Origin: Methylophaga sp.
Lineage (GTDB): Bacteria > Pseudomonadota > Gammaproteobacteria > Nitrosococcales > Methylophagaceae
NCBI GenBank assembly: GCA_002706095.1
Contig: PAJP01000023.1
Span: 248,001 to 312,000, forward strand
Reading direction: 5' to 3'
DNA length: 64,000 nt
Made by a program: the position numbers and the translations under genes. Below are positions 32,420 through 35,153 of this stretch, piece after piece; the stretch's first letter is position 1; every line of letters starts with the position of its first letter. Under the pieces are notes generated by a model. The model was not told where the DNA came from, made no database searches, and was given only the letters and a program-made list of their open reading frames with translations.

Positions 32420-33862
32420 ATGAGCGCTTCGATTCCCGAGCAAGTACAACAGCAACTCCTGCTTCCTGTTGGTTTAACGGATAACGATCTGGAAAATGCA
32501 TTAGCTACAACCATGACGGCTGGTGTTGACTATGCCGATTTGTATTTCCAACAATCCAGACAAGAAAACTGGGTGCTGGAAGATGGCATTATCAAAGATG
32601 GTGGTTATCATCTTGAACAAGGTGTGGGTGTCCGAGCCTGTAGCGGTGAGAAAACCGGTTTTGCCTATTCCGATGATTTGGTTTTGCCGGCTTTACAAAA
32701 AGCAGCCAAGGCAGCTCAAGCTATTTCAAGACAAGGCTCTCAACAATCCGTAGCTGTCTGGAAAAAACAGCAATCCCCAATACTGTACACCCCAGATGAT
32801 CCCATTCTTGCCTTAACCGTGACTGAAAAACTCAACTTATTACGAGAAGCCGACGCTGCAGCAAGAGCGGCCGATCCTCGAGTTAAACAAGTCAGTGTTA
32901 GCCTGGCTGGTGGCATTGACACGGTCCTGATTGCGGCGAGTGATGGTACGTATGCCACCGATATCAGACCGCTTGTACGCATGAATGTCAGCGTGATTGT
33001 TGAGCACAATGGTCGACGCGAACGCGGCAGTGCTGGTGGTGGACGACGGATGGATTATCGTTATTTTCAACAAAATAACCTTGCTGTTAACTATGCAAAA
33101 GAAGCCGTCAGATTAGCGTTAGTGAACCTAGAGGCGGTGGCTGCACCTGCTGGAACGATGCCTGTCGTACTAGGTAGTGGTTGGCCAGGTGTTTTATTAC
33201 ATGAAGCTGTTGGTCATGGCTTAGAAGGCGATTTTAACCGCCGTGGTACATCTACCTTCTCAGGCAAGATGGGCGAGCAAGTGGCTTCGCCTTTATGTAC
33301 CGTGGTAGATGATGGTACGTTGCCATCACGCAGGGGCTCACTCAATGTTGATGATGAAGGGGTTGAAACGCAATTCACCACACTCATCGAAAAGGGCAAG
33401 CTGACCGGATACATGCAGGACAAACATAATGCCCGTCTGATGGGCAAAGCAAGTACGGGGAATGGGAGGAGAGAATCCTATGCGCATTTGCCGATGCCAC
33501 GTATGACAAATACGTACATGTTACCTGGTGACCACAAAGCGGAAGAAATCATTGCTTCTGTTGAGAAAGGTATTTACGCCGTTAATTTTGGTGGTGGTCA
33601 GGTCGATATTACGTCTGGCAAGTTTGTTTTCTCTACCAGTGAAGCCTATCTCATTGAAAACGGTAAAGTTACTACACCGGTAAAAGGGGCAACACTTATT
33701 GGGAATGGACCAGAGGTCATGCAACGTATATCCATGGTCGCCGATGATTTAGAACTAGATACTGGCGTTGGTAATTGTGGTAAAGAAGGACAGAGTGTGC
33801 CTGTCGGTGTGGGACAGCCCACCCTGAAAATTGACGCACTGACTGTCGGTGGAACAGCTTAG
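32420..33862 (+). CDS. tldD: Metalloprotease TldD
   Basis: With TldE (PmbA) forms a zinc protease that processes peptides such as microcin B17 and CcdA. 480 residues (E. coli 481). The zinc site [30 protein letters not shown] and the glycine-rich C-terminus [17 protein letters not shown] are conserved. pmbA is not in this window. Confidence 0.97.
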
Positions 33863-33873
33863 ATTTAGAAAAA

Positions 33874-34929
33874 ATGATGGAAAAAAAACATAAAGCAGTC
33901 GCCCTGATTTCAGGTGGCCTGGATTCCATGCTCGCCGTTCGGGTCATGCAGGAACAAGGTATTGAAGTAGAGGGTATTAATTTTTATACCGGTTTTTGTG
34001 TCGAAGGCCATACTCACGCCATTCGTAATCAAGACAAAGATAAACAAAAACGAAACAATGCACTCTGGGTGGCTGAACAACTCGGCATTAAATTACACAT
34101 CGTAGATGTCATAGAAGAATACAAAGACGTTCTATTGAATCCTAAGCATGGTTATGGGGCCAATATGAACCCATGCCTCGATTGTAAAATATTTATGGTG
34201 AGTAAAGCGGTCGAGTGGATAAAAGAAAATCATCACAATGGCTTTGATTTCATCATCACTGGAGAAGTGATTGGTCAACGTCCCATGTCGCAGCGTAAAT
34301 CGACTATGCCAATTATCTCTGAAGAGTCTGGCGCTGATGACTTACTACTCAGACCATTGTGTGCCAAAAATCTGCCTGAGACTTTACCGGAGCGAGAAGG
34401 TTGGGTCGATCGTAGCAAGCTTTATGGCTTTCATGGACGCAATAGAAAACCTCAGATAGCTTTAGCGAAAGAGTTTGGCTTGACGGATTTCGCTAGTCCG
34501 GCAGGTGGTTGTTGTTTCCTGACAGATAAAAGCTATTCAGATAAGTTGGTCGACTTATGGAAAGCACGCAATAGCAGAGAATATGAAATGGACGATATTA
34601 TGCTGCTGAAAGTGGGCAGACATATTCGCCCCAGTGCAGAATTTAAGCTTATCATCGCGCGTGATGCCGGTGAAAGTAAGTTTCTGGAAGGTTATCGAAA
34701 AGAATTTATCAGTATTCATGCTCTCAGCCACAGTGGTCCTATGGCATTGGTTGACGGTAAATTGGATGAAGAACAATATGAGCTTGCAGCGGGTATTGTT
34801 GCGCGTTTTGGACAGGGGCGTATGGCGGATGAGGTCGAACTTGATATCGCTTTACCCAAACAAGGAAATTTACAGATAAAAACACCTCCACTCTCTGCTG
34901 AACAGGTTTTACAGGAGTGGTATGTGTGA
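33874..34929 (+). CDS. PP-loop tRNA-thiolation-like protein with C-terminal NFACT-R-like domain
   Basis: 351 residues. The N-terminal ATP-pyrophosphatase (PP-loop) motif SGGLDS is at residues 13-18, as in MnmA and ThiI. A cysteine pair NPCLDCK (C101, C104) matches the catalytic-cysteine region of MnmA-like enzymes, and a double cysteine (C213, C214) lies in SPAGGCCFLTD. There is no THUMP or rhodanese domain, so it is not canonical ThiI, and the rest does not match canonical MnmA. The C-terminal third (VGRHIRPSAEFKLIIARD) resembles the NFACT-R/DUF814 RNA-binding domain as I remember it. Overlap with a TusA-like carrier (next gene) supports sulfur transfer to RNA. Starts at 33874 and 33877 are equally good. 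Substrate is inference. Confidence 0.75.
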   Translation: MMEKKHKAVALISGGLDSMLAVRVMQEQGIEVEGINFYTGFCVEGHTHAIRNQDKDKQKRNNALWVAEQLGIKLHIVDVIEEYKDVLLNPKHGYGANMNPCLDCKIFMVSKAVEWIKENHHNGFDFIITGEVIGQRPMSQRKSTMPIISEESGADDLLLRPLCAKNLPETLPEREGWVDRSKLYGFHGRNRKPQIALAKEFGLTDFASPAGGCCFLTDKSYSDKLVDLWKARNSREYEMDDIMLLKVGRHIRPSAEFKLIIARDAGESKFLEGYRKEFISIHALSHSGPMALVDGKLDEEQYELAAGIVARFGQGRMADEVELDIALPKQGNLQIKTPPLSAEQVLQEWYV

Positions 34930-35153
34930 GTAAGCAGACCTTAGATGCTCGTAAGATGCTATGCCCATTACCTGTCATCAAAGCCCAGAATCAGATTAAA
35001 CAGATGAGTCATGGGGATGAACTGGATGTGATCTGTACAGATCCAGGTGCTTTACACGATATACCGGCGTGGGCACGAATTAATGGTCATGAAGTTATCG
35101 CCACGCAACAGAATGATGATGAACTTATTATTACGGTTCGAGTTGGTGCATAG
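34926..35153 (+). CDS. TusA-like sulfur carrier protein
   Basis: About 75 residues of the SirA/TusA fold with the persulfide-forming motif LDARKMLCPLPVIKA (CPxP). The GTG start overlaps the preceding stop (GTGA), with AGGAG eight bases upstream; a GTG nine bases earlier is less likely. Known TusA hands sulfur to TusD or other acceptors for tRNA 2-thiouridine; here the partner is likely the overlapping PP-loop protein. Confidence 0.87.
   Translation: MSKQTLDARKMLCPLPVIKAQNQIKQMSHGDELDVICTDPGALHDIPAWARINGHEVIATQQNDDELIITVRVGA

Follow-up and report, generated by a model that had tools for sequence, protein, structure and literature searches.

A PP-loop/NFACT-R_2 protein encoded with a TusA-like carrier as a candidate tRNA 4-thiouridine synthetase in a ThiI-less Methylophaga genome

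A tRNA 4-thiouridylation pathway with TusA-like proteins was reportedly predicted by Burroughs and Aravind in 2014 (RNA Biol 11:360-372, doi 10.4161/rna.28302). The domain pair PF02568-PF18297 serves as a marker of 4-thiouridine (s4U) in a passage of PMC9239080, the only paper found to name PF18297 in the open-licence literature that we searched. According to passages of PMC11417400, the enzyme usually credited with s4U formation in bacteria is ThiI, and RudS, the form in which TudS is fused to DUF1722, removes s4U from tRNA; YbgA-like single-domain proteins are treated there as different in function. The same passages describe two RudS-bearing groups without ThiI, for which either ThiI homologues of different architecture or a lack of s4U was suggested. 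As for other tRNA thiolases, CxxC...C is given in an excerpt of PMC11784392 as the motif of C-type MnmA. In an excerpt of PMC10067955, three residues hold the [4Fe-4S] cluster of several tRNA thiolases, which include archaeal s4U8 enzymes.

We analysed a stretch of 64,000 nucleotides from a Methylophaga genome, referred to here as the window. The gene at 33874..34929 on the + strand encodes a PP-loop/NFACT-R_2 protein of 351 amino acids, which is predicted from its open reading frame, Pfam matches and structure model to be a tRNA 4-thiouridine synthetase. Its PP-loop (HUP) adenylation domain, assigned from Pfam and the nearest folds, covers approximately residues 7-240 (33892..34593, +) and is matched by PF03054 tRNA_Me_trans (E=7.2e-12, 45.8 bits) and PF02568 ThiI (E=2.3e-08, 34.4 bits). 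The SGGLDS motif occupies residues 13-18, and S13-G-G-L-D-S18 is invariant in the aligned relatives. An earlier note on this DNA had described a PP-loop enzyme with neither THUMP nor rhodanese domains, and Pfam indeed detected neither of them up to E=1. The note had also placed an NFACT-R-like region at residues 225-300 and proposed an HMM search for it. This search matched PF18297 (E=3e-32, 111.3 bits against a cut-off of 26.9), which confirms the domain but moves it somewhat downstream, to residues 248-350 (34615..34923, +); from PF18297 and the fold matches, this NFACT-R_2 domain is predicted to be the tRNA-binding part. Of the aligned relatives, 28/28 matched the models of NFACT-R_2 and PP-loop alike, so that on the sequence profiles the combined architecture is far beyond chance. 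The closest relatives among the best 80 loci of a genome collection were from Methylophaga and similar bacteria, with 77-81% identity.

No NCBIfam equivalog cut-off was reached by the PP-loop/NFACT-R_2 protein, which scored 45.0 bits against the MnmA equivalog TIGR00420 (cut-off 236.95) and 34.4 bits against the ThiI equivalog TIGR00342 (cut-off 264.5). The structure model of the protein had a mean pLDDT of 86.9. In VIA-align, the catalytic part matched 4kr6_A, an s4U synthetase-RNA complex presumably from T. maritima, with Z 15.2 and rmsd 2.7 over 170 residues at 28% identity. Further matches were YcfA (Z 14.8) and ThiI 2c5s (14.2), both within about one Z unit of 4kr6_A, followed by LarE (13.6) and MnmA 2hma (12.6); in Foldseek, MnmA 2hma came first by E-value. 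The C-terminal part matched RqcH 8s1u_H (residues 249-351, Z 14.1) and FbpS 5h3w_B (residues 246-351, Z 14.0). The window protein resembles ThiI in its PP-loop fold, in its predicted product s4U and in its association with RudS, but it carries NFACT-R_2 in place of the THUMP and rhodanese domains and has a separate TusA-like carrier. By the sequence models MnmA is at least as close as ThiI, which speaks against s4U as the product.

The likeness to MnmA extends to the cysteines, as the earlier note had recognised. The C101-L-D-C104 motif (34174..34185, +), a predicted pair of [4Fe-4S] ligands that is invariant in the alignments, aligns with NPCxxC of the MnmA entry 9hln, where E. coli MnmA has NPDxxC. 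The cysteine C214 (34513..34515, +), adjoined by C213, aligns with the late 'CF' cysteine of MnmA and is predicted from this alignment and from its conservation to be the third ligand. These are the positions that characterise C-type MnmA; in contrast to a genuine MnmA, which is encoded elsewhere in the genome, the MnmA match ends within the PP-loop part of the window protein. Cysteines 42, 101, 104, 213 and 214 were invariant in 30/30 full-length rows comprising the window and 29 loci of its class. In the alignment of the window with the best 80 loci, cysteines 42, 101, 104 and 213 were invariant in 81/81 rows, and position 214 was Cys in 80/81 rows with one unread X. A third alignment combined the window with 18 loci of the phylum sample described below, mostly from outside the window's class and leaving out the window's own locus and that of genome G007; C101, C104 and C214 were invariant in 19/19 rows, while C42 and C213 were each Cys in 18/19 rows with one gap. 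Cysteines 101, 104 and 214 are likely to fit a [4Fe-4S]-type mechanism, in which the window enzyme would bind the cluster.

The partner gene encodes a TusA-like sulfur carrier, recognised by PF01206 (E=6.6e-23) and by the Cys-Pro-x-Pro motif CPLP in its sequence. Its longest open reading frame is 34917-35153 (+), with a GTG at 34917. However, the GTG at 34926-34928 overlaps the stop codon TGA (34927-34929) of the PP-loop gene in a GTGA junction, and the start is thus probably at 34926, so that the gene extends over 34926..35153 (+). Both reading frames and the junction are present in the sequence, in agreement with the overlap reported earlier. The domain and the motif are those of TusA, but the protein differs from TusA in being encoded with a PP-loop gene and in scoring below the NCBIfam TusA equivalog cut-off (48.6 bits against 78). 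The two-gene operon recurs widely. Of the best 80 loci, 73 had a TusA gene downstream in the same orientation, with an overlap in 56 of these 73, whereas 6 of the 80 had no adjoining TusA gene despite ample flank; these loci came from one genome-collection scan and were apparently all from Gammaproteobacteria or unclassified Proteobacteria. The same arrangement was found at 26/30 loci of the class sample, where three of the four loci lacking it run out within 350 bases, and at 17/20 loci of the phylum sample. Since the other neighbours were less frequent among the best 80 loci (TldD in 6/80, glnA in 31/80), TusA is the only widely conserved neighbour. In the window, a TldD/PmbA metallopeptidase gene is located upstream of the PP-loop gene, at 32420-33862. 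The window pair shares the architecture, the TusA association and the predicted product of the PF02568-PF18297 plus TusA pathway, and nothing sets it apart. Because that pathway had reportedly been predicted in 2014 and its domain pair already serves as a marker, the pair is a further member of an already predicted kind.

The remaining sulfur and tRNA genes of the window's genome bear on which nucleoside is made. MnmA (444.5 bits against a cut-off of 236.95) and TtcA (483.5 bits against 272) are both present, and ThiI is absent from this genome, as the sole match of the ThiI model was the window gene itself, at 33.5 bits. The look-up of the two canonical enzymes that the earlier note had proposed thus returned a canonical MnmA and no ThiI, and its suggestion of a two-gene tRNA-sulfuration module distinct from both is supported by these two results together with the NFACT-R domain and the TusA adjacency. 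If the enzyme backed up MnmA or TtcA by thiolating another tRNA position, for example to s2U34 or s2C32, the MnmA-like cysteine pattern and the scores of the PP-loop domain, which are as good against MnmA models as against ThiI, would be accounted for. However, since MnmA and TtcA both exist in the genome, these positions are already served and a stand-in role is set back; moreover, as given below, the family excludes ThiI and the s4U eraser RudS tracks it. We consider action at such a position improbable. A second TusA-like gene is located elsewhere in the genome, as are two long cysteine-desulfurase matches: an IscS-like one with one in-frame TAA (G000:C1:163138-164271) and a second, intact copy (C17:37804-38937). 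In the absence of ThiI, this genome nevertheless encodes a complete RudS (L149:4075-5019, at G000:C21 near 207138), in which PF04463 (TudS, residues 5-145) is followed by PF08349 (DUF1722, residues 189-305), each longer than 80 residues.

The distribution of these genes was examined in a sample of 274 genomes of the window's class with profiles for NFACT-R_2, ThiI, DUF1722 and photolyase. Matches to PF18297 were counted as PP-loop fusions, of which 30/138 in the class sample (29 full-length and one, L030, cut by a contig end) and 20/46 in the phylum sample were checked in sequence. NFACT-R_2 was found in 138 genomes, full-length ThiI in 21 (19 over the cut-off and two at 253.8 and 246.5 bits), DUF1722 in 74 and photolyase in 132. 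ThiI and NFACT-R_2 occurred together in 1/274 genomes against 10.6 expected (hypergeometric P=4.6e-6, relatedness ignored). The only genome with both, G221, is 82% complete (G221:C64:56996-58120 and G221:C142:2510-2815), so that it may be contaminated or may represent a genuine transition state. A remnant of an NFACT-R_2 gene with a stop was seen in a genome of 1.4 Mb (G030:C1:280563-280727), which has no DUF1722 match; in G175, a member of its genus, the NFACT-R_2 match is full-length.

RudS/DUF1722 accompanied either enzyme. It was found in 62/137 NFACT-only genomes, 10/20 ThiI-only genomes, 1/1 genome with both and 1/116 with neither (P=1.2e-20, relatedness ignored); outside the window's genome these are matches to the DUF1722 domain alone and may include single-domain YbgA-like proteins rather than TudS fusions. 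Photolyase, which served as a light-related control and is similarly frequent, showed no such pattern (53/137 NFACT-only, 13/20 ThiI-only and 66/116 with neither), and within photolyase-positive genomes DUF1722 was present in 42/53 NFACT-only, 10/13 ThiI-only and 0/66 with neither. A light habit underlying both RudS and the enzyme is thus insufficient as an explanation. When one genome per family was taken (158 genomes), DUF1722 was found in 40/80 NFACT-only genomes, 5/11 ThiI-only genomes and 0/67 with neither. For comparison within families, 268/274 genomes with a readable family label were used and 6 were dropped. Eleven families were mixed for the synthetase; DUF1722 differed in seven of them and was always with the holder (5 NFACT, 2 ThiI), while three had no DUF1722 in either member and one (f87) had it in both. 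Since the pattern is kept in these two comparisons, genome incompleteness and phylogeny were rejected as its source. DUF1722 lay about 3 kb or less from photolyase at G043:C5, G184:C2, G045:C7, G242:C1, G139:C1 and G210:C26, in NFACT-only as well as ThiI genomes.

A sample of 289 genomes of the phylum, some of them common to the class sample, gave the same picture. NFACT-R_2 was positive in 46 genomes, ThiI in 106 and DUF1722 in 76; the ThiI count comprises 105 over the cut-off and G499, whose copy is split at contig ends, and leaves a decayed copy in G533 uncounted. NFACT-R_2 and ThiI overlapped in 0/289 genomes against 16.9 expected (hypergeometric P=6.7e-11, relatedness ignored). RudS/DUF1722 was present in 19/46 NFACT genomes, 53/106 ThiI genomes and 4/137 with neither. 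In the two samples, five RudS/DUF1722-positive genomes had neither enzyme (G211, G394, G410, G462 and G514); all are below 90% complete (86, 78, 74, 83 and 67%, respectively), and relatives with one or the other enzyme are present in the family of each.

These distributions bear also on the idea that the thiouridine which the enzyme forms, be it s4U or a different one, lies at another site or in another RNA, the exclusion of ThiI reflecting nothing but lineage history. Phylogeny does inflate the P values; furthermore, the NFACT-R of RqcH acts on the ribosome according to a source excerpt, and the target of NFACT-R_2 is a predicted one. Nevertheless, RudS, which is reported in passages of PMC11417400 to act on s4U in tRNA, follows the enzyme within families (7/7 where RudS differs) and in other classes of the phylum. 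We therefore regard a different site as unlikely. That the protein is no RNA enzyme and hands sulfur to a cofactor, such as thiamin thiazole in the manner of the ThiI rhodanese domain or by a LarE-like transfer, is most improbable, because, although PP-loop folds such as LarE match (Z 13.6) and TusA-like carriers serve several pathways, a rhodanese domain is absent by Pfam, the C-terminal domain is a relative of the NFACT-R of a ribosome/tRNA factor, and the co-occurrence with RudS would be left without a reason.

Since ThiI is excluded and the s4U eraser RudS co-occurs, the product points to s4U. Thus, the PP-loop/NFACT-R_2 and TusA pair is very probably an alternative tRNA s4U synthetase system that replaces ThiI, acting presumably at U8. 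The following mechanism is plausible: NFACT-R_2 would bind the tRNA in place of THUMP, and the PP-loop domain would adenylate O4 of the uridine with ATP. The co-encoded TusA-like carrier may then deliver persulfide sulfur to a [4Fe-4S] cluster with C101, C104 and C214 as its ligands, from which the sulfur would be passed on to the activated uridine.

In the open-licence literature that we searched, no biochemical or tRNA-modification data on s4U formation by any PP-loop/NFACT-R_2 member were found, and the first 10 of 70 literature matches held nothing usable on s4U measurements in ThiI-less, NFACT-positive species. Evidence combining ThiI exclusion with RudS was likewise not found earlier in the open-licence literature searched; this combination is a new addition to the case for s4U.

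In conclusion, the PP-loop/NFACT-R_2 and TusA pair is probably a second bacterial s4U synthetase, of the Fe-S type, which is commoner than ThiI in the window's class (138 vs 21, n=274) and which would supply the s4U erased by RudS in many ThiI-less RudS bacteria, as a light-related write/erase pair independent of ThiI. In the classes sampled, the counts of the PP-loop/NFACT-R_2 gene supply a concrete candidate for the missing s4U writer. If so, the annotation of genomes as s4U-negative because they lack ThiI would be wrong, also for the window's genome.
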